A stretch of 40,707 nt of DNA, from positions 1 to 40,707 of IMG/VR virus record IMGVR_UViG_3300028653_000170, one strand, 5' to 3'. This DNA is from a virus. The notes under the pieces were generated by a model that saw only the letters and a list, made by a program, of their open reading frames with translations, searched no databases and was not told the origin of the DNA. Below are positions 2,377 through 20,158 of this stretch, piece by piece; within the stretch, counting starts at the first letter, position 1, and each line of letters opens with the position of its first letter. The position numbers and the translations under genes are program-made.

Positions 2377-3161
2377 CGTATTATCCACGGCAGTTTACCC
2401 CTCCATTTTTCTATAAATCTTTTCTCTGATGCTTTATAAGATGCTAGATCCCCTGTATAACCCGTTGTTCCCATCTTCTCATCAATCCATTTGGCGTAGT
2501 CTGACCTATTAGCAGTCAAACCATTCAAGTGATGGCAGTACACCTCAATAAACCAGTTTTCATACCCCGCATTAAATGAAGACATGGATAAATCTTTATC
2601 GTAGAAATGGTGAAATGTATAATCTTGATCGAATCCACCGACCTTTTCCATCATCTCACGTCTACAAATAAGAGAAATGCCATCAAACCCTAGAACTCTC
2701 TTATTACCTGTATTTCTAGTGCCATGAACCTCGGCTTCTACAAAGTTAGAGTTACAATCCATGCGTCCGCCATCATAACCAAATCCACTACAACCAAAGA
2801 ACCCTGCAAGTCCGATATTTGAGTTGCTTTCAAACAAATCTAGCACTCTTTTATCCCAACCCTTTTCTAAGACAAGTAAATCGTTATGTAATATAGCAAT
2901 GACATCTCCCTTCGCTTCTTTCCATGCCTGTTGCATAGTCTTAACAACGCCTAGATTTTCTTCGTTTCGTATTAATCTATGATCAGGAAAATGTGGAAAG
3001 ACATACTTTGTGATCCATTCTCCACTGCCATCCGTTGAATTGTTATCAATAACTAGAAGTTCCACATCGTTCTTGTTCTCTATATTAGCAATATGAGCAC
3101 CCCAGACACCTTTCGTATCATCTATTTGATTCATAAAAGGGATGGCTATAGTAAGTTTCAC
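2373..3161 (-). CDS. Family 2 (GT-A) glycosyltransferase
   Basis: This 262-residue protein is a typical GT2 enzyme. It opens MKLTIAIPFMNQ, has the donor-binding IDNNSTDGSGEW segment, an HND variant of the DxD motif in IAILHNDLLVL, and the later GGFDQDY acidic region. The start codon is GTG, and the overlap GTGA with the upstream methyltransferase stop implies translational coupling. It differs clearly from the GT2 at 49-828, so the two probably make different linkages. Family is clear; specificity is unknown. Confidence 0.85.
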   Translation of the reverse strand: MKLTIAIPFMNQIDDTKGVWGAHIANIENKNDVELLVIDNNSTDGSGEWITKYVFPHFPDHRLIRNEENLGVVKTMQQAWKEAKGDVIAILHNDLLVLEKGWDKRVLDLFESNSNIGLAGFFGCSGFGYDGGRMDCNSNFVEAEVHGTRNTGNKRVLGFDGISLICRREMMEKVGGFDQDYTFHHFYDKDLSMSSFNAGYENWFIEVYCHHLNGLTANRSDYAKWIDEKMGTTGYTGDLASYKASEKRFIEKWRGKLPWIIR

Positions 3162-3676
3162 TTGATATCTTTCTTGATTTCAAAATAGTAATGAGTGGGC
3201 GTTATAAAACTCACACTAGAATTATATACCCTTTGTAAATATTCAGGAAATACTACAGATTTTACCCATTTAGTGCCGCCAATCTGACCCCAGACACTCT
3301 GGTCTGGCATCGGTGTAATACCTATTACACGGTCACTAGCGACCCGTAGCGCCTCTTCTAGAGTTTTTATAGGATTACTAGTCTGTTCAAGAATACAAGA
3401 TAGTACAACAACTGGAACTTCTCCATCTTTATAATCTAAACACTCAGATGCACCCCAATAAACATCTAAACCCTTAGCTCTAGCTTTATCAACCATTTGA
3501 CCTGATAAATCTACACCATGCCCATGTCCACACTTTTCAATTAAGTAGCCGCTATTACAACCAACATCTAAAAAGTCGTCCTCTCCTATTTGTTTTACCA
3601 AATAGTTAATAAACAGATCATTTAATGGGCTATGACCCTCTTCTATTTCAACGTCGTAGAGATTGTCCTGAGACAT
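3158..3676 (-). CDS. SAM-dependent methyltransferase (class I)
   Basis: This 172-residue methyltransferase has the canonical motif I FLDVGCNSGYLIEKC, followed by GVDLSGQMVDKA, where the acidic residue binds the SAM ribose. Two in-frame ATGs exist. The one at 3676 is favoured because GGGAGAA lies about 10 nt upstream; the ATG at 3694 is itself fused to that purine run and has none before it. The gene overlaps the upstream deacetylase by 34 bases. It is probably a sugar methyltransferase by context only. Confidence 0.78.
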   Translation of the reverse strand: MSQDNLYDVEIEEGHSPLNDLFINYLVKQIGEDDFLDVGCNSGYLIEKCGHGHGVDLSGQMVDKARAKGLDVYWGASECLDYKDGEVPVVVLSCILEQTSNPIKTLEEALRVASDRVIGITPMPDQSVWGQIGGTKWVKSVVFPEYLQRVYNSSVSFITPTHYYFEIKKDIK

Positions 3677-4224
3677 GCGTCTAGTTTCTCCCATGAATAA
3701 CCAAATTGATTACCGTCTTTAAATCTCCATGAATGACAATAGATAATAGGGTCAGTGGGTGTTTGACCGTACATAGACATGCCCTCAAGATAATCCTCAA
3801 GACGTTGGGACTTACCTAGTACTTTTAGACCACATACCCTATCGTCATATTCCTCCGATTGTTCATTAAAAGGCAATACAGCATAGGTCGGTGCAAAACC
3901 CCAAACATGCAAGATCTCACAACACGTCTGTTGATCCTTTTTAGTAGGTCTATGTGTATGACGAAAACCGTGTGTACCAATAAAATCGTCCCTGTTCAAT
4001 AAAAAGTCGAAAACCTCCGTATTATCTTTGAAAGTTTGACCAGTACAAGAGTAATCGAATATCTTGTCATTATCCCACCCACTATCAATGTCTATTGTAT
4101 GCCCAATTAAAGTTATGGCTTGGATAATTTTGAAACCATATTTGTCACATATCTCACAAAACTTATATATCTCGTTTATATCTGTAGAAAACCCAATGTC
4201 ATCATTCCTGATTATCGGTAACAT
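3643..4224 (-). CDS. NodB-type polysaccharide deacetylase-like protein
   Basis: The 193-residue protein resembles carbohydrate esterase family 4 (NodB homology) enzymes, which remove N- or O-acetyl groups from glycans. It has a paired Asp motif (RNDD, residues 6-9) for the catalytic base and metal ligand, the metal motif HGFRHTH (family pattern H-x3-H), and a late CHSWRF that may supply the catalytic His. Start at the ATG at 4224 is supported by a GGAGAG Shine-Dalgarno; the longer frame would need a TTG. It lacks a signal peptide, so it should act in the cytoplasm on a carrier-linked or nucleotide-linked sugar. The fold call is moderate because overall similarity is distant. Confidence 0.7.
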   Translation of the reverse strand: MLPIIRNDDIGFSTDINEIYKFCEICDKYGFKIIQAITLIGHTIDIDSGWDNDKIFDYSCTGQTFKDNTEVFDFLLNRDDFIGTHGFRHTHRPTKKDQQTCCEILHVWGFAPTYAVLPFNEQSEEYDDRVCGLKVLGKSQRLEDYLEGMSMYGQTPTDPIIYCHSWRFKDGNQFGYSWEKLDACLRTISTTLK

Positions 4225-4682
4225 ACAACTCTCCAATCTCTTATGGGCATATGCATTATGCCTTGCTGAGTAAATTGAATATCTTTAAATCCTACATCTT
4301 TTAATAACTGTTCCAGTTCAGACTTTTCGTAAACATAGTGGTGCAAAACAATAGGATCAATTGCAACGTCTTGATTTCCATGTAAACCCCATCTTCCATG
4401 AATATCGCCCTGTTGATACATCTTAATAGTTTCAGATAGGTCAGTAAACTCAATTGTCATCTTCCCACCGTCCTTTAAAACTCTATACCAATCACTCAGA
4501 ACATCAACAAACTCCCATTTATAGAACGATTCAATAACATGAACAGCCACTATCTCATCCACAGACTCATCCTGATAAGGCAATGGTAGTCTTAGGTCAT
4601 GCTTGACATCTGCACCCTCGCACAGATCTACATTAATAAACCCATCAATCCTAAGATCTCCTCCGCCGAGATTTAATTTCAT
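4212..4682 (-). CDS. SAM-dependent methyltransferase (class I, short)
   Basis: This 156-residue protein begins MKLNLGGGDLRIDGFINVDL, a predicted SAM-binding start seen in short methyltransferases of glycan clusters. It continues with ADVKHDLRLPLPYQDESVDEI and VHVIESF, and a WYRVLKDGGKMTIEF segment typical of Methyltransf_11-like proteins. A strong GAGGAGG Shine-Dalgarno precedes the ATG. It overlaps the upstream GT4 gene by 4 bases and the downstream deacetylase by 13. It is the third methyltransferase of the cassette. Confidence 0.8.
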   Translation of the reverse strand: MKLNLGGGDLRIDGFINVDLCEGADVKHDLRLPLPYQDESVDEIVAVHVIESFYKWEFVDVLSDWYRVLKDGGKMTIEFTDLSETIKMYQQGDIHGRWGLHGNQDVAIDPIVLHHYVYEKSELEQLLKDVGFKDIQFTQQGIMHMPIRDWRVVCYR

Positions 4683-5464
4683 AACATTACCTCCTCGTAC
4701 AATTTATTAAAACGCTCGCATAAATTAGGCCATGTAAGATGCGATACTTGTGGGGATGTATAAAACTTCTCTATCTCATGTTTAATGCTTTCAATGCTTC
4801 GATCACACTTATGACAATTTAACTGTGATGCATACCCAACATTTGTAGTTATAAATGGTTTGTTGATCGCTGAGCATTCTACTGCAATTGTGTTAAATCC
4901 CTCATTAACCGAGGCTATAACCATAAGATCAACGCTATTATAAAACCCCAACATATCCTCTGGTTTAATATTCTCATTTGCAACAATAAGATTGATACTA
5001 AGTTCATCACAAGCCTGTTTAACAAAATAAAATCCTTTATAATCTCGGCTATATTCTTGAAACGCCATACCTACAGTGAAAGGGTGACTTGGCCTAAAGT
5101 CCTCAGTTAAACCATCTGGAATATACACGGCATCCGGGAATTCTTCCAAAAGAGAAACATTTACGACGTGAGTTTTAAAACGCTTTGCTAAATCTTTTAC
5201 GTAATCTGCATATCTAAAGCTTCTTATGCTCAGAAGCAGTGGTTTGGTAAAACTTTTCACCGCATCTAGATGGCTACCAAAGTCCCAGTTAAGATAATGC
5301 GTCATGTCATGACTATTAACCTTATCTATCAGTTGCTGATTATCTAGTCTAGTGTAAAAATCGAGATCAATATCGTACTTATCTGAAAGGTTATCCATCA
5401 TTTTATGGGCTATCCTATCAACAATCCAACCCTGTCCATCAGATAGCATTAATACTTTTTTCAC
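4679..5464 (-). CDS. Family 4-like (GT-B) glycosyltransferase, short
   Basis: The 261-residue protein is a short GT-B type glycosyltransferase. The C-terminal half has the nucleotide-sugar region of GT4: a strand around IYIPDGLTEDF and then SVDLMVIASVNEGFNTIAVECSA, which matches the E-x7-E donor-binding motif. The usual N-terminal acceptor lobe is reduced; full-length GT4 enzymes have about 350-400 residues. It overlaps both neighbours by 4 bases (ATGA type). This could be a minimal active enzyme or one that pairs with another cassette protein. Confidence 0.75.
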   Translation of the reverse strand: MKKVLMLSDGQGWIVDRIAHKMMDNLSDKYDIDLDFYTRLDNQQLIDKVNSHDMTHYLNWDFGSHLDAVKSFTKPLLLSIRSFRYADYVKDLAKRFKTHVVNVSLLEEFPDAVYIPDGLTEDFRPSHPFTVGMAFQEYSRDYKGFYFVKQACDELSINLIVANENIKPEDMLGFYNSVDLMVIASVNEGFNTIAVECSAINKPFITTNVGYASQLNCHKCDRSIESIKHEIEKFYTSPQVSHLTWPNLCERFNKLYEEVML

Positions 5465-6108
5465 CAGTTGTGCCCTCCCATTTCGTAAATGTTGTTATTC
5501 TCTCTTTGTCCTTCACGATCAAAGAACTTTACTTTAACCCCAGACTTCCATACTGCATAAGGAAAGGATATCTGATCTCGCTTTGACCCCCTTGTTATTT
5601 CACTCCACCAAATATTATTAAACTCAGTTACTTTAGGAGTATTTCGTCTTAAAATCATGGCACAATCTGCTAGTCTAGAACCATCGAACCCTTCATCCTT
5701 ATAGCGCTGTACCTGCTTGCTTATTAAATCCTCGGTATCAAACTTACCGCCTATACATTCCTGTGCCTCCTCGTATACAGTTCCTCTTTGAAGATGTGGC
5801 ATTATAGCCATGTCGTACTCCCCATCACCAAGTTGCTTGTTAAACAAAGTCTCGGCATCTACTTTCATATGGATATTCCCATCTATCCACATTGTGTCTT
5901 TACTAAAAAACAAATGGGGACAAATCTTATAGATCTTTGCTCTTCGACAATTATTAGACTCAGCACTATCTATTTTATGGGTATACCAACCTTCATAAAA
6001 GTCGTCTCTTGGAATATCGAGATCGTCTGTAAAAAGGTGATTTTCGTGGTCAAGATTATATGGAACAATTCTATCCTTTTTAGCTGTTATGGCAGTATAT
6101 AAAATCAT
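5461..6108 (-). CDS. TOD1/MUCI70 (DUF616)-like glycosyltransferase
   Basis: This 215-residue protein resembles the DUF616 (TOD1/MUCI70) glycosyltransferase-like family: an opening ILYTAITAKKDRI, then a host-lattice segment with RRAKIYKICPHLFF, MWIDGNIHM (predicted Asp-containing sugar-binding strand) and a C-terminal half rich in conserved aromatic residues (WWSEITRGSKRDQISFPYAVW). The start has an AGGTG purine run 7 nt before ATG. It is the first gene of the sugar cassette downstream of the packaging genes and overlaps the GT4 by 4 bases. The family match is from memory of motif patterns; activity is inferred. Confidence 0.65.
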   Translation of the reverse strand: MILYTAITAKKDRIVPYNLDHENHLFTDDLDIPRDDFYEGWYTHKIDSAESNNCRRAKIYKICPHLFFSKDTMWIDGNIHMKVDAETLFNKQLGDGEYDMAIMPHLQRGTVYEEAQECIGGKFDTEDLISKQVQRYKDEGFDGSRLADCAMILRRNTPKVTEFNNIWWSEITRGSKRDQISFPYAVWKSGVKVKFFDREGQRENNNIYEMGGHNW

Positions 6109-6119
6109 TTAAAAACACC

Positions 6120-6239
6120 TCAAAAATACCTATAAACCAAACTTCCTAATCTTCTATTCACCTTGTAGAAGCAATTTGCACACAATGCGTATCTACCCAC
6201 ATACGAAACCTTTTTATCGCCGCACATTCTACAGCTCAT
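6120..6239 (-). CDS. Small zinc-ribbon protein (39 aa)
   Basis: A 39-residue frame encodes a basic protein with two Cys pairs, CRMC (residues 3-6) and CANC (residues 20-23), spaced as in a small treble-clef or zinc-ribbon domain. The ATG overlaps the stop of the upstream gene as ATGA, with GGAAG just before it, and the stop lies 11 bases before the next ATG. This fits the coupling used by all neighbours, so it is probably a real gene despite its size. Its function is unknown. Confidence 0.65.
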   Translation of the reverse strand: MSCRMCGDKKVSYVGRYALCANCFYKVNRRLGSLVYRYF

Positions 6240-6571
6240 ATCTTCCAGTCCGTCTTTCCCGGAGCAAGTGGTTTATATGGTGCATTAGCTATAACATCAC
6301 CTTTATTGTTTATAGTAATGTTTCTACCTTTATAAGTATACACCGCGGTAGGTCTTGCAACAGCATATGCATCATTAATACCTTTTACATTGTCATATAA
6401 TGCATCATCTTTCTTCTTCTTCTCTATATATTCTGGGGTTTCTCTACATTCAGGACAGGGTGTTTTGTGGCATAGGCCGTCGAACTTACAGGAATTGGGT
6501 TTATGGCATCTTGGACACTCAATGTACTCAGGTATTTCAGAACCGAATAATATAATCTTTGATTTAGCCAT
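6236..6571 (-). CDS. Zinc-ribbon protein of unknown function
   Basis: The 111-residue protein has two Cys pairs, CPRC and CPEC, near residues 20-45, separated by a further CHKTP segment, so it likely binds zinc. The C-terminal half has no recognised domain. The ATG at 6571 was chosen because ATGGCTAA overlaps the TerL stop; the longer frame would start at TTG. It sits directly behind TerL, where some phages carry HNH-like packaging helpers, but no HNH catalytic motif is visible here. Confidence 0.65.
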   Translation of the reverse strand: MAKSKIILFGSEIPEYIECPRCHKPNSCKFDGLCHKTPCPECRETPEYIEKKKKDDALYDNVKGINDAYAVARPTAVYTYKGRNITINNKGDVIANAPYKPLAPGKTDWKI

Positions 6572-7991
6572 TGTTTTTATTATACATCGAGGCAAATTGA
6601 AGAATTCCTGATTCTATTTTACCACTCATAAAAGCTAGTGCCAATGCGTCTGCTTTATCAGGTGATGGTAAACCACGTTTCTTCATGTCTTCTTTAGACT
6701 CCATCTCAACTTGACCCTTAATGGTATAAAAATACTTAATAGATGCTAATTGAGACTTTAACTCGTCATCATCTGGTATTGAGATGTCGCCGTTTATAAA
6801 TCGTTCTCTTAGATTCCAATATATTTCAGCACGTAAATTCTTGAACAATTCTGGCTTCTGCGATGCTTTACCCACGTTCACATCCTCATAGGTCTTGAAC
6901 CTAGCTAATCTCTTTATTGTATCAACAACACCAGCTCCAACACCAACACCGTCGATTCTAGTAAAAGCGTACGGACGACTGGACATATAATTAAATAGAT
7001 TATTTGCTGTCTGTACAGTATCTTGTAATGTATAAGTCTTAATATCCAAAACCGTTGCACCTTTACGATATAGAAAGACTGTCTTATCATCACCATATCG
7101 TGCTACATCACAACCTATATTCTCTGGATCACCACTTATAGATTCAATCAACTTATTAGTGGCCTCCTCAATCTTAAACAGTGGGATCAGTGTATCTGTG
7201 CCCTGTGTTGGAAATTCACCTAATACACGAGATTCCCACATCGGTGAACCCTCTCCCCATCTTAAATACTTATCATAAACCCATTCGGGTGTAACAAGGT
7301 AAGGACGTGGCAGTTTACCTATAATCTTCTCTTCCCATTTATTGGCTTTAATATCCTCAAGTGTGATACCAAACTCCGTAAAGTTAGGAGTATCAAATGC
7401 ACTTATATGAAATGTTTTATAATTAGGGAGTTCAAAAGATCGGTGAAATGTACCCGTTATATTGGTAGGGTTACCTATAAGCAACTCCCGAGAGTTACCG
7501 GACGACAATATTCCCTCTGACGCCGTGTATATTTCCTCCTTAATACCGCTTGCTTCATCGCACACCAGTAAAATGTTCTCAGCGTGAAAACCTTGAAATC
7601 TATCTGGCTCGTTTGTAGATAAACCCAGAGCAAACCATTCATCATCTATATTCAACTTTGTAGTTGATAGGCTACCTCCCAATACTTTGTAGTCGCCATT
7701 GGCCTTATTCCATGCGTTTGCAAGTTCTCTCCATAGTATATCTGTAACCTGTCTAAATGACGGGGCTGTTGTTATAACTTTTGAATTAGGATGAGAATAA
7801 AGAAACTGTAGAGCGATCCTTGCAGCAAGCCATGTCTTACCGCTACCGTGGCATGACTTTATAGATACACGTTTATAATCTTGTAACGACCGGGATATAT
7901 CTCTTTGCATTTCCCAAAGAGAGTCACCAAATATCTTCTCTATAAATCTATCAGGATTGTTCGATAGGTGTTGTATTGTCTTCGATATCAT
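6564..7991 (-). CDS. terL: Terminase large subunit (ATPase-nuclease)
   Basis: This 475-residue protein is the DNA packaging motor. The ATPase domain has a Walker A-like SCHGSGKT at residues 46-53 and a Walker B ILLVCDEA at about 140-147 with the catalytic Glu. The RNase H-like nuclease domain starts at GCDVARYGDD (Asp at residue 295), with further acidic positions in TRIDGVGVG and in SPDKADALALAF near the C-terminus. Length is standard. The gene overlaps the small subunit by 41 bases. It acts at the portal vertex, pumping and cutting concatemeric or circular DNA. Confidence 0.97.
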   Translation of the reverse strand: MISKTIQHLSNNPDRFIEKIFGDSLWEMQRDISRSLQDYKRVSIKSCHGSGKTWLAARIALQFLYSHPNSKVITTAPSFRQVTDILWRELANAWNKANGDYKVLGGSLSTTKLNIDDEWFALGLSTNEPDRFQGFHAENILLVCDEASGIKEEIYTASEGILSSGNSRELLIGNPTNITGTFHRSFELPNYKTFHISAFDTPNFTEFGITLEDIKANKWEEKIIGKLPRPYLVTPEWVYDKYLRWGEGSPMWESRVLGEFPTQGTDTLIPLFKIEEATNKLIESISGDPENIGCDVARYGDDKTVFLYRKGATVLDIKTYTLQDTVQTANNLFNYMSSRPYAFTRIDGVGVGAGVVDTIKRLARFKTYEDVNVGKASQKPELFKNLRAEIYWNLRERFINGDISIPDDDELKSQLASIKYFYTIKGQVEMESKEDMKKRGLPSPDKADALALAFMSGKIESGILQFASMYNKNNG

Positions 7992-8355: not shown

Positions 8356-9464
8356 TCATCCTCCTTACCTATAAACTTTGCATATCGTTTTCGAATAACG
8401 TCGCAATATTTAGGGTCTATTTCCATCATGTAACAGGTTCTGTTTAGTTGTTCACAGGCTATTAGGGTTGAACCACTACCACCGAATAGGTCTAATACTG
8501 TACCCTCTTTTTTGCTACTGTTACCTATTGCTCTTGCTGATAACTCTACGGGTTTTTGTGTTGGGTGATTGTAGCTTGCTGTGCTATCACGCTTAAAGTT
8601 CCATACATTGCTCTCGGAGTTAGTATCTAAAGTTCCATAAAAGGCGATAAACTCGTGTTGTTGCCTGTAACCAGCACCAAGACCAATACTTCCCTTGTCC
8701 CATACAATAACATTGTTAGGTTTACCAAGTGCCAAAAAGAAATCGGGGTAACTTTGCCAATTACAACAAATGTATTTAGGCATCTGTAGCCAACCCAATG
8801 AGTCATAAATAAATTCCTTCAAATGCTCACCCTCCAAATTATCTCCAACAATGCCTCCCCACGGTTTTCGTCTATCCTTATCTACACGAGATACATAATC
8901 AACCCCATAAGGAGGGTCAGTAAACACCATGTCTGCCTTCTGTCCATTCATTAGCTTTTCTACATCTTCTATCTTTGTACTATCGCCACACATTAGTCTG
9001 TGTCTGCCTAACTGATAGACCTCACCTAACTTACTTATTGCGGGTTCGGTTGATACTTCTGGAGGTTCATCTTCTACTACTTCGTCTGACTTCCAGCCAC
9101 TCGTATCTATACCCCATTCGTCTAAGGGTAGGTCTGACCACTCATTTGCCAAAGCGTCATCATCCCATTCCCCAAAAGGCACGTTATCTTTAATTATAAA
9201 TTCACGTTTTTGATTCTCATTCCAGCCTTTGGCCTCAAGGAAACATTTATCACTAAATACAACACCCTCTTTAATAAGTTCCTGCATAGCACGAAGCAGC
9301 ATATTACCTCCAAGAACAATACCATCCTCATCATATACAATAGGTCGTTTCTCTAACATTTGTGGAAATTCTCGTAGGGACTTCTTCAGTTTTTCAAACA
9401 TTTCCTTATCAATTGTTCTTGGATTACTGGGGTTGTATTTTAGACGGATCAAGACATTGTCCAT
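8325..9464 (-). CDS. ParB-like domain fused to DNA (N4/N6) methyltransferase
   Basis: The 379-residue protein has an N-terminal ParB/Srx-like domain (residues about 1-100; RPIVYDEDGIVLGGNMLLRAM) and a C-terminal DNA methylase. The methylase shows the catalytic DPPY at residues 183-186, HPTQKP near 300 and the SAM-binding FGGSGST near 328, an order typical of beta-class adenine or cytosine-N4 enzymes. It likely methylates phage DNA against host restriction. The gene overlaps TerS by 31 bases. A TATAAT hexamer (9471-9476) lies exactly 6 nt before the ATG, with AAGGAT in between, so an internal promoter is possible, but no good -35 was seen. Confidence 0.93.
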   Translation of the reverse strand: MDNVLIRLKYNPSNPRTIDKEMFEKLKKSLREFPQMLEKRPIVYDEDGIVLGGNMLLRAMQELIKEGVVFSDKCFLEAKGWNENQKREFIIKDNVPFGEWDDDALANEWSDLPLDEWGIDTSGWKSDEVVEDEPPEVSTEPAISKLGEVYQLGRHRLMCGDSTKIEDVEKLMNGQKADMVFTDPPYGVDYVSRVDKDRRKPWGGIVGDNLEGEHLKEFIYDSLGWLQMPKYICCNWQSYPDFFLALGKPNNVIVWDKGSIGLGAGYRQQHEFIAFYGTLDTNSESNVWNFKRDSTASYNHPTQKPVELSARAIGNSSKKEGTVLDLFGGSGSTLIACEQLNRTCYMMEIDPKYCDVIRKRYAKFIGKEDEWHTITPVIL

Positions 9465-9476
9465 ATCCTTATTATA

Positions 9477-9644
9477 CTACTCTTTGATAACTATGGTGTG
9501 GTCTAAGAAATGCTTTATAACATACCTTAACCATAAGGGAGACAAAATACCACACGTTATTAAGGTTAAGACAAACCACATTAAATTACCTAACAAGAAG
9601 TTAAGCCAATTTCCACTGTATTCTAGTCTGTGTCGTTCGTTCAT
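9477..9644 (-). CDS. Small membrane protein (55 aa)
   Basis: This short frame encodes a 55-residue protein with a central hydrophobic stretch (about residues 14-40, including LLGNLMWFVLTLITCGIL) and polar ends, so one long or two short membrane helices. The ITCGILSPLW turn recalls DUF898-like small membrane proteins. Gene support is strong for its size: AAAGGAGG Shine-Dalgarno, ATGA overlap with the upstream gene and stop 12 bases before the methyltransferase ATG. Confidence 0.72.
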   Translation of the reverse strand: MNERHRLEYSGNWLNFLLGNLMWFVLTLITCGILSPLWLRYVIKHFLDHTIVIKE

Positions 9645-9841
9645 TTTTGAGCCTCCTTTTGGTGTGTTTTCTCAAATACCGCTAATACATCACTATTACA
9701 AGCATCTACTATCCTCTTAGCATACTTAGAGTAAAAAGCCTCTACCGTGTGCTTGTTGTCAAAAGGTGACCATTCCTCGGGGTCACTAGCCTTCTTTATA
9801 AACTCTTTTAATATTATTGCTATTTCATTTTCTTTTGTCAT
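9641..9841 (-). CDS. Hypothetical protein (66 aa), predicted leaderless
   Basis: The 66-residue, mostly charged and helical protein has no recognised domain. Its ATG lies at the position expected for the transcription start of the promoter at 9848-9876, and no Shine-Dalgarno is present in the 6 bases between -10 box and ATG, so the mRNA is predicted to be leaderless. It opens an operon that continues into the membrane protein and the methyltransferase. Confidence 0.7.
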   Translation of the reverse strand: MTKENEIAIILKEFIKKASDPEEWSPFDNKHTVEAFYSKYAKRIVDACNSDVLAVFEKTHQKEAQK

Positions 9842-9847
9842 ATCTAC

Positions 9848-9876
9848 ATATTACACCATTGAGGCGTGCTTGTCAA
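9848..9876 (-). promoter_or_regulatory. Sigma70-type promoter, leaderless architecture
   Basis: Minus strand: -35 TTGACA (9876-9871), 17-nt spacer, -10 TAATAT (9853-9848). The -10 box ends exactly 6 nt before the ATG at 9841, so the start of transcription should coincide with the ATG. The spacer end (AATGGTG) also occurs in the promoter at 16217-16245. Confidence 0.78.
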
Positions 9877-10292
9877 TACTCTAACTCCTTGATCTTCCGT
9901 TTATATATTTCCTTTAATTCTAACAGTTCCTCCCGCTTCCATACGATCTCTTTACGATTCAACTCTATTAGCTCATTAACTCTTTCCCTACCTATTTCAT
10001 CTTCCAGTTTCAAAGCGTATTCAGCCTCGCATCCATTAAGATAGAAATTGCATCTTTCACACTGACCATGAACATTATCTTCCATAAGATAAGTTACTTT
10101 ATTCTTGCCATGTTTAAAATGTCCCGCATGAGCATCACCCATAGGTATACTAGCTCCACATGTATAACAATTTAAATATCCTCTACCTTGGCAGTCTCTT
10201 AATCTTATAAAGCGAGAAAACAGTATCCAAACCTGGTCTCGAAGCTTGGATATTGTTAATGTTTTCTTTTTCTTTCCACCAATTGACGTCAT
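9873..10292 (-). CDS. ninG: NinG/Rap-like recombination protein
   Basis: The 139-residue protein matches the lambda NinG (Rap) family, zinc-binding recombination proteins that act on branched DNA. It has a CYTCG pair (Cys42, Cys45), the signature GDAHAGHF (His55, His58), and HGQCERCNFYLNG (Cys78, Cys81), followed by a charged helix. Length is close to the family norm for short members (lambda NinG about 204). Its stop lies just inside the -35 region of the next promoter. It overlaps the upstream zinc protein by 4 bases. Confidence 0.88.
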   Translation of the reverse strand: MTSIGGKKKKTLTISKLRDQVWILFSRFIRLRDCQGRGYLNCYTCGASIPMGDAHAGHFKHGKNKVTYLMEDNVHGQCERCNFYLNGCEAEYALKLEDEIGRERVNELIELNRKEIVWKREELLELKEIYKRKIKELEY

Positions 10293-10709: not shown

Positions 10710-11002
10710 ATCTTCCCTTTTGTAGAGTCTGTGGGTTCAGTGTGTTTGGTATCTGTAGGTTTAATAGTTAGATATTTCTTATAGAAGATGTATTCATTAC
10801 TTTTTAAAAGCTCTTTCACATAATAAGTAAATAAATCTATTGGGGCATCTTTTACAGAACAAAACAGCTCTTGGTGGTTTATAGTACTTTCACCTAACAA
10901 TGAAGCCAATCTAATAACACAACCGTATTCATCTGGGTATGCCGATACCTCCACTTTGCCTCTTTTATCCCAGTATAAATTGGTCTGCTTGGTTATTTTC
11001 AT
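10706..11002 (-). CDS. Hypothetical protein (98 aa)
   Basis: No family was recognised for this 98-residue protein. It has a beta-rich start (NLYWDKRGKVEVSAYPDEYGCVIRLASLLG) and a helical second half, with a Thr/Lys-rich tail. An AAGGAG Shine-Dalgarno lies before ATG. It overlaps the Mom-like gene by 4 bases and may share its expression. Confidence 0.6.
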   Translation of the reverse strand: MKITKQTNLYWDKRGKVEVSAYPDEYGCVIRLASLLGESTINHQELFCSVKDAPIDLFTYYVKELLKSNEYIFYKKYLTIKPTDTKHTEPTDSTKGKI

Positions 11003-11607
11003 ATTATCTCCTTAACCTCAGTGTGTGAGGAGTCTAAATTATAAATAAATGTACATTTTCCTGCCGTCTTAATATATGTAGCCCTTCCTTCTTCCAACGC
11101 TGTCTTTATCTTTTGTGCAAACGGTTTCAGCTCTCCTTTGTATTTGGTTCGTATTGTTTTGTCATGATACCTTCTATCATTAAACATAATTACTCTAGCT
11201 CCCTTTATATCTGCCAGCTGTTCAAAGTTACTTGCTTTATAAATTATTCCGCTATGCCCGTATTCCTTGTCGGCATAACTTACAACCGTTTTTCCGTTCC
11301 AAGACTTACCCAATAACTTCAACGCCCTGCCTATAAAATAGGATTCCGCATTTCTAGGTGTGCTGTCGTCACAACACAGCCTCCTTAGTTCAATCACATC
11401 TGTTTCTTTTCCCCCAAACCTTTTCCATTGGTTTGCCATGGCCATTCTTCCAAAGAATAGGGCTCCTCTCATTGCCGCATCCGTATCAAACAAGGCGTAA
11501 CAGTAATCGGAGATGCACCCATTTATGCTTCCTGAATAGTGCCACTTCTCTATAAACTTTGTTATATCCTTCCTACTTACTTGTTTTACTTTCCAACCAC
11601 TCAACAT
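10999..11607 (-). CDS. Mom-like DNA adenine modification protein (GNAT-like)
   Basis: This 202-residue protein resembles the Mu Mom family, which converts adenines in phage DNA to a carbamoylmethyl (acetamido-type) form and blocks many restriction enzymes. Visible family pattern: KWHYSGSINGC near the start, LFFGRMA, the ELRRLCCDD..PRNAESYFIGRALKLL block in the middle, then VVSYADKEYGHSGIIYKASNF. Length fits Mom-type proteins. It is coupled to the 98-residue gene by a 4-base overlap. No separate Com-like regulator was identified, though several small zinc-finger proteins lie nearby (Mu Com is a zinc protein that activates mom translation). The family call is from pattern, not from a search. 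Confidence 0.82.
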   Translation of the reverse strand: MLSGWKVKQVSRKDITKFIEKWHYSGSINGCISDYCYALFDTDAAMRGALFFGRMAMANQWKRFGGKETDVIELRRLCCDDSTPRNAESYFIGRALKLLGKSWNGKTVVSYADKEYGHSGIIYKASNFEQLADIKGARVIMFNDRRYHDKTIRTKYKGELKPFAQKIKTALEEGRATYIKTAGKCTFIYNLDSSHTEVKEII

Positions 11608-12234: not shown

Positions 12235-12509
12235 TATTTCCCCTCCTTTACACTACTTGTACTGGTAGTTAGATAGGGTTTAAATATTGCCATAATCTTA
12301 TCAATCCTTGCAGGGTTTTTATCGGCGTGGCGACTAGTCATGTGTTTACCTAATGAATTGGATTTGGCGTCAAGATAATTGGGAACTATATAGTCGCAGT
12401 AAGGGCATCTGTCACCGTACTTACTGAACAATGTTTCCTTTGAATACAAGACTTTCGCTGTTTCAAGTCGTAGTTCTTCTATATCCACAGTTTGGTTGTT
12501 ATTGGTCAT
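12234..12509 (-). CDS. Small C2H2-like zinc-finger protein
   Basis: The 91-residue protein contains CPYCDYIVPNYLD followed by LGKHMTSRH, the spacing of a C2H2 finger (Cys-x2-Cys ... His-x4-His). A short conserved finger of this kind in phages is usually DNA- or RNA-binding. The start overlaps the stop of the repeat-protein gene by 4 bases. No further function can be assigned. Confidence 0.65.
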   Translation of the reverse strand: MTNNNQTVDIEELRLETAKVLYSKETLFSKYGDRCPYCDYIVPNYLDAKSNSLGKHMTSRHADKNPARIDKIMAIFKPYLTTSTSSVKEGK

Positions 12510-12772
12510 ACCTCTATTACCTTTCCTGACTTATCAACTAAACTAATAGAGCCATCGCCAGAGCCATAGCCATAGCCATCGCCAGAGCCAGAGCCAGAGC
12601 CATCGCCATAGCCAGAGCCATCGCCAGAGCCATCGCCAGAGCCATAGCCATAGCCATAGCCATCGCCAGAGCCAGAGCCATAGCCAGAGCCATCGCCAGA
12701 GCCATAGCCAGAGCCATCGCCAGAGCCATAGCCATCGCCTTTCATTGTAGTTTCATCAATTACTTTTTCCAT
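12506..12772 (-). CDS. Gly-Ser-Asp-Tyr repeat protein
   Basis: After a 10-residue charged start (MEKVIDETTM), this 88-residue protein is almost entirely G-Y/S/D dipeptides (GDGYGSGDGSGYGSG style) up to a short hydrophobic-charged end (ISLVDKSGKVIEV). The DNA is a tandem array of 6-base units (12551-12739). The ATG at 12772 lies 2 bases after the stop of the DUF6948-like gene, with GGAAGAAA upstream; the longer frame would need TTG. Such glycine repeats suggest a flexible or phase-separating protein. Real function is unknown, but the frame is kept open through all repeats. Confidence 0.7.
   Translation of the reverse strand: MEKVIDETTMKGDGYGSGDGSGYGSGDGSGYGSGSGDGYGYGYGSGDGSGDGSGYGDGSGSGSGDGYGYGSGDGSISLVDKSGKVIEV
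12551..12739 (-). repeat. Hexanucleotide (GGN-dipeptide) tandem repeat array
   Basis: Plus-strand units are GCCATC, GCCAGA and GCCATA, each 6 bases, repeated about 31 times without a frame break. They encode Gly-Asp, Gly-Ser and Gly-Tyr. Array length could vary by whole units through slippage or recombination without breaking the gene. Confidence 0.9.
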
Positions 12773-12774
12773 AT

Positions 12775-13143
12775 TTATTTCTTCCAAACTGGTACAGATT
12801 TAATACTTTCCTGAGACTTTTCGGTTGCGGGTATTATTTCTATTGCTTCCGTTAGTATAATTTCCTCTACTTCGGTTGGAAATTTACAGTTGGAAACATT
12901 CGCCACACCATCTACTGCTAACTGGGATAATGAACATGCTCCGTCCCAGTACCAAAGTCTTCTAGCGTCGTTTAAATACACCTCTTTGCCATCTCTTGAC
13001 TTCAAATATCCTGCAAATACACCTGCAGAATAGGTACGAACTATTACATAGGTTAAACCATCTCTTGTAGCAATAGTGTTTTTAATACTATCTGCTGGTA
13101 TATACTTAACCCCATCTACTACTATTTCTTTTGTTTTTGTCAT
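12775..13143 (-). CDS. DUF6948-like protein
   Basis: The 122-residue protein fits the pattern of DUF6948 proteins: ATRDGLTYVIVRTYSAGVFAGYL, then ARRLWYWDGACSLSQLAVDGV and KFPTEVEEIILTEAIEII, ending in basic residues. These proteins are found in phages and metagenomes and often sit beside Gly-Tyr-Ser repeat proteins, as here. Function is unknown. A short upstream frame (13140-13187) overlaps its start. Confidence 0.8.
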   Translation of the reverse strand: MTKTKEIVVDGVKYIPADSIKNTIATRDGLTYVIVRTYSAGVFAGYLKSRDGKEVYLNDARRLWYWDGACSLSQLAVDGVANVSNCKFPTEVEEIILTEAIEIIPATEKSQESIKSVPVWKK

Positions 13144-13187: not shown

Positions 13188-13353
13188 AAGTCCTCCTAAT
13201 AGTGCTTCTAATTTTTTTACAACCAAAGCATACTTGTGTTAATGCGTCATGGAATGTTGAGTAAATAGCTTGTTGTGTGTGCTTGCCCTCGCATTCTTGT
13301 ATATGTTTGCGTACCTCCTCTACAGTTGTTAAACATTCGTAGTCAAATGTCAT
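13180..13353 (-). CDS. Hypothetical protein (57 aa)
   Basis: This 57-residue protein has Cys residues at 7, 21, 43 and 46 (CFGC near the C-terminus), with a polar, helical character. GGAGG lies 7 nt before ATG, and the ATG overlaps the upstream stop (ATGA). It fills what would otherwise be a gap of about 200 bases. No family was recognised. Confidence 0.65.
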   Translation of the reverse strand: MTFDYECLTTVEEVRKHIQECEGKHTQQAIYSTFHDALTQVCFGCKKIRSTIRRTYD

Positions 13354-14183
13354 TTTATTTCCTCCAATTCAACTAAATGATTTAACATCCATTTATCTAA
13401 TTTCTTATAAGCTGCTGACTCTGCTGACCATACTGCTGACTCTGCTGACCGTGCTGCTGACCTTGCTGCTGACCATGCTGCTGACCATACTGCTGACTCT
13501 GCTGACCGTGCTGCTGACTCTGCTGACCATACTGCTGACTCTGCTGACCTTGCTGCTGACCGTGCTGCTGACCATGCTGCTGACCATGCTGCTGACTCTG
13601 CTGACCGTGCTGCTGACTCTGCTGCTGACCATGCTGCTGACTCTGCTGACCGTGCTGCTGACCTTGCTGCTGACCATGCTGCTGACCATACTGCTGACTC
13701 TGCTGACCGTGCTGCTGACCATGCTGCTGACCATGCTGCTGACTCTGCTGACCGTGCTGCTGACTCTGCTGCTGTTCTATTTTCTTCCGTTGGTTCTTTT
13801 ACATATCTCTCAGCTGCTTCGATTGCTTCACGGGGTCTTTTATCTTCCGGGTATAGCTTTTCAAAGTTATCTAAACATAGATACGCTACAAAGATACTAA
13901 AGAGTACGCTATCCTTTTTCTGCCATTTATATGTTTTAGTAACTCTCATCTCCTGCCAAACATCTTTCGTATCCTCACTTTCATGTTTTCCTTTGACTTC
14001 TACCTCGGCCAATATCTCACCTTGTACATATGAAAATGCTTGGTAAATACCCTTTGAACAGTGAAATCCTGATTCACAGAGTTCAATTTCACCGTCGTGT
14101 TTATACCACACACCTTTTTTCCACTTAAAGTCTCCGTGAGATGATTTATTGCCTTTTAATAGAAATTTATATCTTTTAGTCAT
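13350..14183 (-). CDS. DUF7666-like protein with Ala-Trp/Arg-Ser-Ala repeats
   Basis: The 277-residue protein has an N-terminal globular part (about residues 1-130) with the pattern of DUF7666 proteins: HDGEIELCESGFHCSKGIYQAFSYVQGEILAEVEV and VTKTYKWQKKDSVLF. Then come about 120 residues of tandem A[W/R]SA and ESA units, and a short end (YKKLDKWMLNHLVELEEIK). The repeats are predicted alpha-helical and could form a long helical or coiled structure. DNA repeat units are 9 and 12 bases. Start by ATGA overlap with the 58-residue gene. Function unknown. Confidence 0.78.
   Translation of the reverse strand: MTKRYKFLLKGNKSSHGDFKWKKGVWYKHDGEIELCESGFHCSKGIYQAFSYVQGEILAEVEVKGKHESEDTKDVWQEMRVTKTYKWQKKDSVLFSIFVAYLCLDNFEKLYPEDKRPREAIEAAERYVKEPTEENRTAAESAARSAESAAWSAAWSAARSAESAVWSAAWSAARSAARSAESAAWSAAESAARSAESAAWSAAWSAARSAARSAESAVWSAESAARSAESAVWSAAWSAARSAARSAESAVWSAESAAYKKLDKWMLNHLVELEEIK
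13411..13774 (-). repeat. 9/12-base tandem repeat array (A[W/R]SA, ESA units)
   Basis: Plus-strand units TGCTGACCATGC (A-W-S-A), TGCTGACCGTGC or CCTTGC (A-R-S-A) and the 9-base TCTGCTGAC (E-S-A) alternate over about 360 bases. Larger blocks (for example the run from ESA through VWSA) also recur, so copies have been spread by block duplication. All units keep the frame. Confidence 0.9.
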
Positions 14184-15889: not shown

Positions 15890-16181
15890 TTATTTCACCC
15901 CGCTCTCCATAGTCTTCTGATGTTCTGTCACAATCACTCATTGCATGATCACAAGATAAGCAGTATCCGTTATCTAGGAAAAACTCTAACTCACCGAAGT
16001 CGGTGACTTTATGTCCGCACTTACATACATGTTCGTGAGTGAGAATGTCCTTGTATAGTCTCTTCTCGGCCTTAACTTGTATTCCTGCAAATTCCCAAGC
16101 TAGATCCGGAAGACCTAAAGTTAATAAACTGTAATAAAATTCTGAACCAAACTTAGTTAGTTCGTATGTTCGTTCTTTCAT
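15882..16181 (-). CDS. Small zinc-ribbon protein (99 aa)
   Basis: The 99-residue protein has HEHVCKCGHKV and CLSCDH, giving a likely zinc site (Cys-x-Cys...Cys-x2-Cys). The N-terminal half is helical (YELTKFGSEFYYSLLTLGLPDLAWEF). It is the first gene after the promoter at 16217-16245, with GAAAGG upstream. No known family was recognised. Confidence 0.62.
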   Translation of the reverse strand: MKERTYELTKFGSEFYYSLLTLGLPDLAWEFAGIQVKAEKRLYKDILTHEHVCKCGHKVTDFGELEFFLDNGYCLSCDHAMSDCDRTSEDYGERGEINE

Positions 16182-16216
16182 AGTTTTGTGCCTTTCACTA
16201 AATATCTACTATCAAT

Positions 16217-16245
16217 AGAGTACACCATTAAGTAATGTGTGTCAA
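16217..16245 (-). promoter_or_regulatory. Sigma70-type promoter with a conventional leader
   Basis: Minus strand: -35 TTGACA (16245-16240), 17-nt spacer ending AATGGTG, -10 TACTCT (16222-16217; matches at the key T1, A2 and T6). The spacer end and the CTATTGACAC context match other promoters in this genome. The transcript would have a leader of about 30 nt to the ATG at 16181. Confidence 0.65.
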
Positions 16246-16264
16246 TAGATTATATGTTGTCAAA

Positions 16265-16456
16265 TCAACCTAATATTTTCTGCCTATATTTATCAGCTGT
16301 TTCTTTACTTAAGATAACTTTGCCGTTTTTAACCTTAGAAAGCAAAGACAAAGCAATACCAGTACGACGATGGAGAGCATTTAAACTCTCTCCTGTTTGC
16401 CATACGCTATTGTCTTCAAATATTTCAGTCGATTTCGTAACGATTTTCCACTTCAT
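16265..16456 (-). CDS. Small HTH (Cro/CI-like) regulator
   Basis: This 63-residue protein contains a helix-turn-helix pattern (ESLNALHRRTGIALSLLSKVKNGKVILSKETADKYRQ), like single-domain Cro-type phage regulators. The gene starts within an ATGA overlap with the upstream gene. It could repress the promoters at 16217-16245 or at the control region. Its small size fits a minimal DNA-binding domain without a dimerisation domain. Confidence 0.7.
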   Translation of the reverse strand: MKWKIVTKSTEIFEDNSVWQTGESLNALHRRTGIALSLLSKVKNGKVILSKETADKYRQKILG

Positions 16457-16755
16457 TTATCTTTTTTATTCCTTATAAGAAAGTTCAATATATCGGCTAT
16501 ACCTTCGCTCTCTATATCTATACGCAAGCCCTGAGAAAAGAAACTTTCATCTGGGGTTATATTATCCAGTAATTTATCTATACCTAACTGCATATGATCC
16601 AAAGAACAGAAAGATAAATCGCCACTTTCGTCAGTACAATCATCAAAGGGACAGTGATAGTTCCAAGAAAATCTAATATTAATATCCTTCGACTCGCAAA
16701 TATCACACACTTCGACCTCTATATTCTTCATAACTCTCTCAGTGACTCTTCTCAT
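16453..16755 (-). CDS. Hypothetical Cys-rich protein (100 aa)
   Basis: Near the start this 100-residue protein has CDICESKDINIRF and then HCPFDDC, a likely zinc-binding segment; the rest is acidic and helical. It overlaps both neighbours by 4 bases. No family was recognised. Confidence 0.6.
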   Translation of the reverse strand: MRRVTERVMKNIEVEVCDICESKDINIRFSWNYHCPFDDCTDESGDLSFCSLDHMQLGIDKLLDNITPDESFFSQGLRIDIESEGIADILNFLIRNKKDK

Positions 16756-17231
16756 TTTAATTCCTCGGACTCATATAATATTTTATCCAAAGGCAAAAAT
16801 AGGTTAATACCCTTTTTATTCTGTGTTAAATTGTTAATCATCCAAGGCAGATAATCTGATATAATTCTCAAAAGTTTATCGTTATCGGGAAGTGCCGGCA
16901 AAACTTCTTCAGGTTTACCAACTACATCCTTAACAATCTTTGCCCAGGTGACGTTTTTTCCGTAATGACTTAAAAGTACATCTAAATCAGGCTCTTTACG
17001 AGCAACTGCTACCATGTTGTAGATAGATGATTTTCCTTTACCTAAAGACTTTCCAATCATTGGAATAAGTTTCTGTCCATACGTTGCTTCACGATCTGAT
17101 ACCCTAAAATCCTGCAATATACGTTCCCCTATTTGATAAGAGCCTTTAATAAGTTCTTCTGTTGAATTAAAAATAGTCTCTGTGGCTATTGCATTACAAT
17201 CTTCTATGCAGCTATCTATCCAGTCGTTCAT
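16752..17231 (-). CDS. Predicted DNA-binding protein (159 aa), leaderless
   Basis: The 159-residue protein holds a helical block (SYQIGERILQDF, TYGQKLIPMIGKSLGKGKSSIYNMVAVAR) that recalls the N-terminal DNA-associated domain of DUF1016-type proteins; the nuclease domain of that family is absent. Its ATG is exactly 6 nt downstream of the -10 box at 17238-17243, with no Shine-Dalgarno, so a leaderless mRNA is expected. It heads an operon with the Cys-rich and HTH genes. Confidence 0.65.
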   Translation of the reverse strand: MNDWIDSCIEDCNAIATETIFNSTEELIKGSYQIGERILQDFRVSDREATYGQKLIPMIGKSLGKGKSSIYNMVAVARKEPDLDVLLSHYGKNVTWAKIVKDVVGKPEEVLPALPDNDKLLRIISDYLPWMINNLTQNKKGINLFLPLDKILYESEELK

Positions 17232-17237
17232 ATTAGT

Positions 17238-17266
17238 ATATTACACTATAGACTAATGTATGTAAA
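17238..17266 (-). promoter_or_regulatory. Sigma70-type promoter, leaderless architecture
   Basis: Minus strand: -35 TTTACA (17266-17261), 17-nt spacer, -10 TAATAT (17243-17238), identical in -10, spacing and GTG-TAATAT context to the promoter at 9848-9876. The -10 ends 6 nt before the ATG at 17231. Confidence 0.78.
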
Positions 17267-17268
17267 TA

Positions 17269-17556
17269 CTAAATCTTTATCTGATTAAACAGCTCGTATT
17301 TGCTCAAAACTGGGGCAAAAGGCATATAAAAAGTGCCGTTTTTTCTTTCTTGTCTTATTTCCTCGGCCTTCTTTTTACATCTATCCTGAATATCCGATAT
17401 ACCGTGGTACTTACGACCTTTATATTCAACTTTTAGAGCAAAGGTATTATGTTCTTCACAACAAAATACAGAATCTTCTCTTGAGTCCGCAGTACACCCT
17501 TCAAAATAACATTCTATTACTTTACCAGTTAAATCTTTCATAGTTAAAACTTTCAA
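17269..17556 (-). CDS. Small zinc-binding protein (95 aa)
   Basis: The 95-residue protein has Cys/His residues in CYFEGCTADSREDSVFCCEEH, probably a zinc site, followed by basic helices (RCKKKAEEIRQERKNG). Start at an ATG with TTTGAAAG upstream, a sequence also seen before the starts at 13143 and 14356. Its stop lies just before the promoter of the next gene. Function unknown. Confidence 0.6.
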   Translation of the reverse strand: MKVLTMKDLTGKVIECYFEGCTADSREDSVFCCEEHNTFALKVEYKGRKYHGISDIQDRCKKKAEEIRQERKNGTFYMPFAPVLSKYELFNQIKI

Positions 17557-17572
17557 ATTTTATACTGTACGA

Positions 17573-18145
17573 TCAAGAATCTAAATCTTGTTTCTCCGAA
17601 AACGCTTCAAAGTCTCTGACTAGTTTATCCGTCTTTTCATCTTCTTCATATTTCTTGTATCTCGAAGCTACCCCCTCTGATTTCTTATTTATAAGTTCTG
17701 TATTCTGATTTCTGTATTCTGTATTCTGTATTCTATCTAGTCTACCCATCAGTGTGACGGCAGTGTATAGACTAGTGTATAGACTAGTGTCCCACTGCTC
17801 CATAGCATTCCAGAAACACTGCGGTATTAAAGCAATTTCCCTGTTGTACGCTTTAATTTGATCTCCTCCGCCATATTGTTGATACTTTCTATGGTTTATA
17901 AGACATACCCAAGAACCTTGAGAGAATATTTTCTTATCCTGTTGTAATTTTTTGGCAATTTCTCTTATTTCTACTACGGGAAGTCCTGTTCGATAATTTA
18001 TCTCGGCCGGGCTACACTCATAAACTCCACACATATTGGCCTTTTCATTGGTCATCAGGAAAAGAAATATTAACTTTTGTTCGGGTGTCAAACTTTCAAT
18101 GTAAGTATCGCTCCAAAAGCGTGTATTAACGATTCTAGTTTTCAT
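17573..18145 (-). CDS. Replication initiator-like protein (winged-helix N-terminus)
   Basis: The 190-residue protein starts with a winged-helix-like domain typical of phage replisome organisers: RFWSDTYIESLTPEQKLIFLFLMTNEKAN, GVYECSPAEINYRTGLPVVEI and a turn SQGSWVCLINHRKY. The middle holds low-complexity repeats (SLYTSLYT; RIQNTEYRNQNTE), and the C-terminus is charged. It lacks a DnaC-like ATPase. DNA for the middle part carries iteron-like repeats, as in lambda O, where the origin lies inside the gene. It should melt or mark the origin and recruit the host helicase. Overlap of 11 bases with the upstream gene. Confidence 0.72.
   Translation of the reverse strand: MKTRIVNTRFWSDTYIESLTPEQKLIFLFLMTNEKANMCGVYECSPAEINYRTGLPVVEIREIAKKLQQDKKIFSQGSWVCLINHRKYQQYGGGDQIKAYNREIALIPQCFWNAMEQWDTSLYTSLYTAVTLMGRLDRIQNTEYRNQNTELINKKSEGVASRYKKYEEDEKTDKLVRDFEAFSEKQDLDS
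17696..17735 (-). repeat. 7-base iteron-like repeats, candidate origin
   Basis: The plus-strand unit TATTCTG occurs at 17701, 17715 and 17722, with a TATTCT partial copy at 17729. The period of 7 is not a multiple of three, so it is not simply a codon repeat. It lies inside the initiator gene, next to the 12-base repeats at 17762-17790. Confidence 0.6.
17762..17790 (-). repeat. 12-base tandem repeat, candidate origin part
   Basis: AGTGTATAGACT occurs twice head to tail (17762-17773, 17774-17785) plus a third partial AGTGT. It encodes a repeated S/T-L-Y-T peptide. With the 7-base repeats 30 bases away it may form initiator-binding sites. Confidence 0.55.
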
Positions 18146-18446
18146 GGATTAATTCCTCCGCTTCTCTTAATATGCTATTGTTAGGGTCGAAGCTAGTTCT
18201 TCTTATTAAATCCCCAACATATCTTAATACGGTGACTTTGTCGTCTCGCACACCTCTCAAACACATAACCTCCCACTGAAGTTTTTTCTGATTTATTGGA
18301 GATCCTCTTTTTAAGGCCTCTAATTTACCAGATACAATTTTCTTTTTTCTTTCGACATAACTGTCGTAGAAACTTTGAGCCGAAGCTCTGTCGCAGTTTT
18401 TGGAGACGTTGAACGCATCCAAAGACGCTTTTAGGTAGTTATTCAT
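18135..18446 (-). CDS. Hypothetical protein (103 aa)
   Basis: The protein is helical and basic (KNCDRASAQSFYDSYVERKKKIVSGKLEALKRG); no family was recognised. The ATG at 18446 was chosen over an in-frame upstream ATG at 18500 because it has AAAGGAT 7 nt upstream and an early stop of the 34-residue frame just before it. It is the first larger gene of the early operon, upstream of the initiator gene, with which it overlaps by 11 bases. Confidence 0.62.
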   Translation of the reverse strand: MNNYLKASLDAFNVSKNCDRASAQSFYDSYVERKKKIVSGKLEALKRGSPINQKKLQWEVMCLRGVRDDKVTVLRYVGDLIRRTSFDPNNSILREAEELIHEN

Positions 18447-18450
18447 GCTT

Positions 18451-18555
18451 CTATCCTTTAAACCCAATAGTCCCCCCTGCACAGAGTAGTAATGACACAA
18501 CGAGTGCGAGGGAGGCTATCAGGTTCAAGTTTTTAAATGTATACCGTTGTGTCAT
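18451..18555 (-). CDS. Predicted small membrane peptide (34 aa)
   Basis: A 34-codon frame gives a basic start (MTQRYTFKN) then a hydrophobic segment (LNLIASLALVVSLLLCAGGTIGF), a plausible single-pass membrane peptide. The stop lies 5 bases before the next ATG. No Shine-Dalgarno is present, but the weak promoter at 18564-18592 predicts a start only about 2 bases before the ATG, matching the leaderless design seen elsewhere. Its codons include both arms of the 12-base inverted repeat. It could be real or only chance. Confidence 0.45.
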   Translation of the reverse strand: MTQRYTFKNLNLIASLALVVSLLLCAGGTIGFKG

Positions 18556-18556
18556 T
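18491..18556. repeat. 12-bp perfect inverted repeat in the control region
   Basis: AATGACACAACG (18491-18502) pairs perfectly with CGTTGTGTCATT (18545-18556), separated by 42 bases. It spans the coding frame of the 34-residue peptide. It could be paired operator sites (looping) or an mRNA hairpin that hides the peptide's start. Confidence 0.6.
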
Positions 18557-18563
18557 GAATATA

Positions 18564-18592
18564 AAGCTAAACCTTCTTTTATGCTCTGTCAA
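18564..18592 (-). promoter_or_regulatory. Weak leftward promoter candidate (early operon)
   Basis: Minus strand: perfect -35 TTGACA (18592-18587), 17-nt spacer, -10 TAGCTT (18569-18564; matches at T1, A2 and T6). It is the best leftward promoter in the divergent region and would drive the early genes. Confidence 0.5.
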
Positions 18593-18597
18593 GCATG

Positions 18598-18623
18598 TTA
18601 CAATTACTGGAAAATCATTGTAA
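18598..18623. promoter_or_regulatory. Operator-like inverted repeat
   Basis: TTACAAT (18598-18604) and ATTGTAA (18617-18623) form a perfect 7-bp inverted repeat with a 12-base spacer. It overlaps the -35 region of the rightward promoter, so a repressor bound here would block the plus-strand gene. Confidence 0.5.
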
Positions 18624-18635
18624 TAGCGCTATAAT
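18608..18635 (+). promoter_or_regulatory. Rightward promoter, leaderless architecture
   Basis: -10 TATAAT (18630-18635) is perfect and lies 6 nt before the ATG at 18642. The -35 candidate is TGGAAA (18608-18613; four of six), with a 16-nt spacer. No Shine-Dalgarno lies before the ATG. Confidence 0.65.
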
Positions 18636-18641
18636 ATAGCC

Positions 18642-18842
18642 ATGAATATCAATAAGATACTAAAGAATATGGCCACTGAACGCTATGATTATTTTAGGTG
18701 TGAAGCATGTAAAAAGAAACATCGAAAACTAAAAGGAAGACATAATACTGTGTGTCAATGGTGTGCGATGATGGAACCTGCAAAGTATAAAGAGAAATAT
18801 TTTACAAAATACACAGAAGAAAATACCCCACTAGTTAGGTAG
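18642..18842 (+). CDS. Small zinc-ribbon protein, the only plus-strand gene
   Basis: The 66-residue basic protein has CEACKKKHRKL and CQWCAMM, two Cys pairs of a treble-clef or ribbon finger. It faces away from the early genes and meets the lysis operon head-on at a shared terminator, with both stop codons inside the hairpin loop. Its promoter predicts a leaderless mRNA; an alternative start is the ATG at 18669. A divergent zinc protein beside an operator-like repeat suggests a regulator, perhaps of the early promoter. Function is unproven. Confidence 0.7.
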   Translation: MNINKILKNMATERYDYFRCEACKKKHRKLKGRHNTVCQWCAMMEPAKYKEKYFTKYTEENTPLVR

Positions 18843-18852
18843 GGTATTTTTT
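18820..18852. terminator. Bidirectional Rho-independent terminator
   Basis: AAAATACCC (18820-18828) pairs with GGGTATTTT (18842-18850), a 9-bp stem with a 13-base loop, and a T-run follows on the plus strand (to 18852); on the minus strand a TTTTCTT run follows. It ends the plus-strand gene and the leftward lysis operon. Both stop codons lie in or next to the loop. Confidence 0.85.
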
Positions 18853-20146: not shown

Positions 20147-20158
20147 AAAAATATTCTC

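Follow-up and report, generated by a model that had tools for sequence, protein, structure and literature searches.

The window, i.e. the whole stretch of DNA analysed here, is a virus record of 40,707 bases. Both ends carry an exact direct repeat of 126 nt (2-127 and 40582-40707), and the record is therefore probably complete. All called genes are oriented leftward except for one at 18642, which lies on the plus strand. Encoded proteins include portal/MuF, maturation protease, terminase and tail tape measure, together with a CHAP lysin, a NinG protein and a DnaD-like helicase loader. A Mom-like DNA modification protein is encoded at 10999-11607 (Pfam Mom, E 8e-32), and two genes (12506-12787 and 13350-14183) consist for the most part of short in-frame repeats with units of 9-12 nt, one of the two being rich in Gly, Ser, Asp and Tyr. 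Rfam and tRNA scans found nothing. Megablast of positions 16000-24000 against phages gave no match, and terminase and portal retrieved no relatives when searched as single sequences. Terminase relatives were found once an alignment of four terminase sequences was used as query. The best of these matches include Firmicutes, Chloroflexota and unassigned genomes (39-48% identity) and, along with the DnaD-like loader, they may offer a hint of the host lineage.

Three genes are preceded by promoter-like sequences that directly abut their start codons. On the minus strand, P9841 (9848-9876) consists of TTGACA (9876-9871), a 17-nt spacer and TAATAT (9853-9848), followed after 6 nt by ATG; the NinG-like gene upstream has its stop codon in the TGA of this TTGACA. 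P17231 (17238-17266, minus strand) has the same layout with TTTACA (17266-17261), 17 nt, TAATAT (17243-17238) and 6 nt to ATG. On the plus strand, P18642 (18608-18635) is composed of TGGAAA (18608-18613), a weak -35, then 16 nt and TATAAT (18630-18635), again 6 nt before ATG, and its -10 is set within a GCTATA-A-TATAGC palindrome. The first-pass annotation had described TAATAT at this distance, with a -35 17 nt upstream, for 9841 and 17231, and a perfect TATAAT at the equal distance for 18642; all these positions and spacings proved exact.

The candidate leaderless start at 9841 opens a 66-aa orphan ORF (9641-9841, minus strand) without recognizable family or relative, in which this ATG is the sole in-frame start codon. 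The start at 17231, likewise a leaderless candidate, opens a 159-aa ORF (16752-17231, minus strand) with only a weak DUF1016_N-like match (E 0.022, below cut-off) and no alternative start codon before codon 38. The third candidate, 18642, opens a 66-aa ORF with four cysteines (18642-18842, plus strand); its gene is monocistronic, with a terminator-like hairpin at 18820-18850, and a second ATG occurs at codon 9 (counted from 0). Codon scores amount to 0.255, 0.167 and 0.018 bits/codon for 9841, 17231 and 18642, the last being weak; 29 training genes have a mean of 0.171, and 36 spurious ORFs give -0.21. In Pfam and PHROGs, none of the three proteins matched a repressor, although a CI or Cro repressor would be expected in a lambdoid cI/cro switch. 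No relatives of these proteins were found in viral contigs or in the fetched loci, and the genes are absent from all terminase relatives recovered by the four-sequence alignment. PDB sequence searches returned nothing usable and two predicted structures were of poor quality (pLDDT 62.7 and 44.1). The intergenic region before the plus-strand gene (18440-18650) is rich in inverted repeats, among them AATGACACAACG/CGTTGTGTCATT (12/12, 42 nt apart) and TTACAAT/ATTGTAA (12 nt apart). Including the palindrome at the -10 of 18642, this region could be an operator or a replication origin.

P9841 and P17231 are parts of a longer element. A 38-nt direct repeat (D5) is present in three copies (9841-9878, 16210-16247 and 17231-17268) and spans the -35, spacer, -10 and 6-nt discriminator; the other copies are 74% and 66% identical to that at 9841-9878. 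The 17-nt spacers of the three copies are alike as well (11, 9 and 12 of 17 positions identical; shuffle p 0.0001-0.006). The copy at 16210-16247 (minus strand) has TACTCT as its -10 and no ATG in register, and it is not leaderless: the gene behind it starts at 16181 with GAAAGG upstream, as expected of a Shine-Dalgarno (SD)-led gene. Thus the repeated design pointed out by the first-pass annotation does exist, but as a 38-nt repeat that includes an SD-led copy, and three more starts with a -10 at 6 nt have to be added (see below).

The best sigma70 match within the 20 kb scanned, P14419 (14391-14419, minus strand; TTGACA-17-AATAAT, 11/12), precedes an SD-led ORF at 14356. Its likeness to the cassette is weak (spacer p 0.02-0.2; fifth rank in a scan with the three copies); it is a probable diverged member. 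One promoter family would accordingly appear to supply both leaderless-type and SD-led starts. The unit of P17231 ends with a 63-aa ORF (16265-16456, minus strand) showing a weak Cro/C1-type HTH (E about 0.02; 0.021, below cut-off, and also 0.016). This ORF is a candidate regulator, and binding of its protein to the cassette spacer is a guess.

Search of the full window for promoters joined to an ATG, as proposed with the first-pass annotation, was performed with a sigma70-type rule that yields 94 promoter-like matches. A promoter ends at distance 6 from 3 of the 60 gene starts and at distances 4, 5, 7 or 8 from none, versus 1 of 1,416 ATGs that are not starts. Expectation for 60 starts is 0.04-0.08 (Poisson P(>=3) = 1e-5 to 8e-5). 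Since P9841 and P17231 are copies of one repeat, they are not independent; counting them once gives P(>=2) = 9e-4. The -10 plus ATG motif by itself is not rare (18 in the window versus 12.75 expected). What is unusual is that it falls on gene starts, not its frequency.

No SD was detected at the three sites, where anti-SD pairing reaches at best -2.8, 0 and 0 kcal/mol for 9841, 17231 and 18642, in agreement with the earlier annotation. Its statement that most other genes do have one is roughly right, the proportion being closer to half: 32/60 start calls reach -4.5 kcal/mol or better versus 21% of random positions, a figure that may be diluted by several wrong TTG/GTG starts among the 60. All three sites thus combine a -10 whose end lies about 6-7 nt from the start codon with lack of SD, the features by which leaderless genes were recognized here. 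Structure over the initial 45 nt of these genes is not unusually low (MFE 0.0, -3.1 and -3.6; median -3.1 over all starts).

Further, we examined the -10 element alone. With a narrow pattern (TATNAT or TAATAT, narrowed after inspection of the data), 6/60 starts have a -10 at exactly 6 nt, versus 7 matches in total for the other 40 distances between 0 and 40; the looser TANNAT gives 6 at distance 6 versus a mean of 0.6. If the three sites described above are left out, 3/57 starts remain at distance 6 (P = 0.02 for TANNAT, 0.0008 for the narrow pattern). One of these is the methyltransferase start at 9464 (TATAAT-AAGGAT-ATG, 9464-9476, minus strand), which has no -35 and in which AAGGA adjoins ATG. 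Its -10 follows directly the stop codon of a 55-aa ORF (about 9477-9644), so that coupling is possible for this start. The other two belong to a pair of gap repeats (D8, minus strand), one at 21632-21675 with TATCAT 6 nt before the ATG (21635) of a tail-fibre-like gene and one at 26764-26807 with TATGAT 6 nt before the ATG (26767) of a minor tail gene. Both D8 gaps measure 36 nt, are 77% identical and contain TTAAAAAAGGATATNAT; both also have AAAAAAGGA 12 nt before ATG, hence SD-led initiation is possible there. The pair might represent a late promoter or an RNA element.

Whether these additional sites are meaningful is an even question to us. They may be coincidental: the small ORF that ends 12 nt upstream would provide coupling for 9464, and AAAAAAGGA would act as SD for both D8 genes. 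None of the three has a sigma70 -35, AAGGA occurs in all of them, so that lack of SD is not clear-cut as it is at the first three sites, and the D8 pair, being one repeat, counts once. On the other hand, about 1 and 12 nt are poor distances for an SD, and the exact 6-nt register recurs among the remaining starts even at P = 0.02.

For the three start-abutting promoters themselves, we favour, with a probability of about 0.7, the explanation that they are genuine: host-type sigma70 transcription would start at ATG, the messages would be translated without leader, and the cassette would act as a regulatory unit. Host-type sigma70 RNA polymerase would bind the -35 and -10, and RNA would begin with the A of ATG, 7 nt after the -10, which is the usual distance. 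The start codon would thus probably form the very 5' end of each message, and host-type RNA polymerase most likely makes truly leaderless mRNAs here. Their 5'-terminal AUG would be taken by 70S or 30S ribosomes without SD. Copies of the cassette with its conserved 17-nt spacer are distributed across the leftward gene cluster, two of the three promoters being among them, and the cassette may serve as a regulatory unit, perhaps through a phage regulator bound in the spacer. The position of ATG relative to the cassette would then decide between a leaderless and an SD-led message. The leaderless layout is well supported at the three sites by exact spacing, lack of SD, the sole start codon at 9841 and the coding potential of 9841 and 17231. 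The weak codon score and weak -35 of 18642 count against this explanation, as does the failure to find homologues of the three genes in which conservation of the layout could be seen. Another point against it is that the genes at 9841 and 17231 each follow a gene of like orientation, after 31 and 37 nt, and transcripts coming from upstream could cover them too.

Polycistronic transcripts from upstream, with coupling or re-initiation, might indeed be what mainly serves these genes, the promoter-like sequences being minor or accidental. Close packing of the leftward genes, with the two short gaps just mentioned, and the many starts in the window that lack SD are consistent with this. We nevertheless regard it as unlikely, because non-start ATGs give a chance rate of just 1/1,416, because the promoter is repeated together with its spacer, and because such transcripts are inapplicable to 18642, a divergent single gene. 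Less probable still, and by a good measure, is a timing layer in which early genes are leaderless and late ones SD-led, the phage shifting the pool of ribosomes or initiation factors. The three sites do lie in the non-structural half, near the gene for the DnaD-like helicase loader, and for its leaderless mRNAs phage phiYS40 reportedly increases IF2 and decreases IF3 (PMC3594737). A led/leaderless timing switch is thus possible, but local evidence points against it. The cassette also drives the SD-led gene at 16181, P14419 is SD-led, the 9841 unit continues into methyltransferase and terminase genes, and two of the sites with a -10 at 6 nt precede tail genes. Moreover, the leaderless genes of phiYS40 are described as middle and late (PMC3594737). 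The division into leaderless early and led late genes put forward by the first-pass annotation is therefore not supported. Nor does it follow, as was also suggested there, that the host reads leaderless mRNA well, since lambda cI is reported to be leaderless in E. coli (PMC3160421, PMC4488713).

We wondered how frequent such starts are in other phages and hosts. With a common, crude gene caller for all loci (first ATG, at least 80 aa), starts at distance 6 number 4/54 in the window, 1/953 in viral loci selected by methyltransferase, 2/963 in viral loci selected by terminase and 3/1,449 in host-genome loci. Compared with the pooled phage and host loci (6/3,365), the window therefore stands out (Fisher 1e-5). 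In loci chosen regardless of promoters, a peak at 6-7 nt is slight or absent for promoters matching 9 or 10 of 12 positions, and a -10-only profile has no 6-nt peak; this speaks against a general trend in phages and also counts against the favoured reading.

The pattern TTGACA-N17-TATAAT-N(1-13)-ATG, a perfect 12-of-12 promoter, was then searched in IMG/VR and matched at least 120 loci (L084-L203). Among the matches listed, 54/148 ATGs are at distance 6 or 7. Restricted to ATGs that open an ORF (at least 40 aa, or 25 if the contig end cuts the ORF), the matches listed give 37/67 at 6-7 nt, or 34/63 after merging of similar proteins, versus 2/13 expected (p about 1e-12). This peak in other viral contigs counts in favour of the leaderless explanation preferred above. 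When ten proteins were chosen for length among the 37 ORFs listed, eight matched PHROGs, with clamp loader, DNA polymerase, primase, exonuclease, helicase and a late sigma factor among them; proteins of these kinds are typical of T4-like phages. As control served Bacillota, presumably the phylum of Heliobacterium chlorum: counted without ORF filter, 15 ATGs at 6 or 7 occur among the 150 matches listed from 149 genomes, and no such peak is seen.

Leaderless phage mRNAs are already known, so that this kind of expression is not new. In phage PY54, a strong promoter directly precedes the start codons of cI and cro, as here, and RACE is reported to have given for each a single mRNA species starting at AUG (PMC4488713). 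These are lysogeny-switch repressors with mapped ends, whereas our genes are orphans behind a repeated cassette, known from their sequence. Lambda cI is likewise a leaderless phage mRNA (PMC3160421, PMC9031893); a homologue of its product is absent here, the nearest being the weak Cro/C1-like HTH at 16265-16456. Thermus phage phiYS40 combines led and leaderless transcripts, as proposed for the window, but there leaderless transcripts are described as middle or late with changing levels of initiation factors, while no temporal class is assigned here (PMC3594737). In the -10 motif adjoining ORFs in Deinococcus-Thermus (PMC12340547) and in bacterial leaderless genes with TANNNT (PMC3160421), the hexamer is reported to end about 6-7 nt before the start, as in our case; those are host genes, often without -35, in contrast to a phage with -35 and conserved spacer. 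A paper on phage AR9 describes phage transcripts as "often leaderless" (PMC5312081). Our literature search, mostly of freely accessible papers, found known cases in phages at large and, among the papers listed, no survey of viral contigs. Distinctive here would be the unusual density of start-abutting promoters and the mixed-mode cassette yielding led and leaderless messages.

A broader proposal can be made tentatively, and we hold it to be rather doubtful: start-abutting consensus promoters may be in wide use among viruses, most often ahead of replication genes in uncultivated phages. In the window, this design would take the form of a mobile or duplicating cassette whose spacer contains an operator. 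Position of ATG would alone set a led or leaderless message, and one regulon would yield mRNAs with different ribosome requirements. Gene callers relying on SD would misplace or miss such genes, and models of phage expression that assume a 5' leader would not apply to them. Should the peak in IMG/VR be borne out by an unbiased sample, viral genomes would offer an ample and little-used resource for work on leaderless translation, and the mixed cassette a natural paired test of two start modes behind one promoter. A TANNNT-like hexamer is also found 6 nt before three gene starts (2608-6993) in L235, a distant terminase relative with 34% GC.
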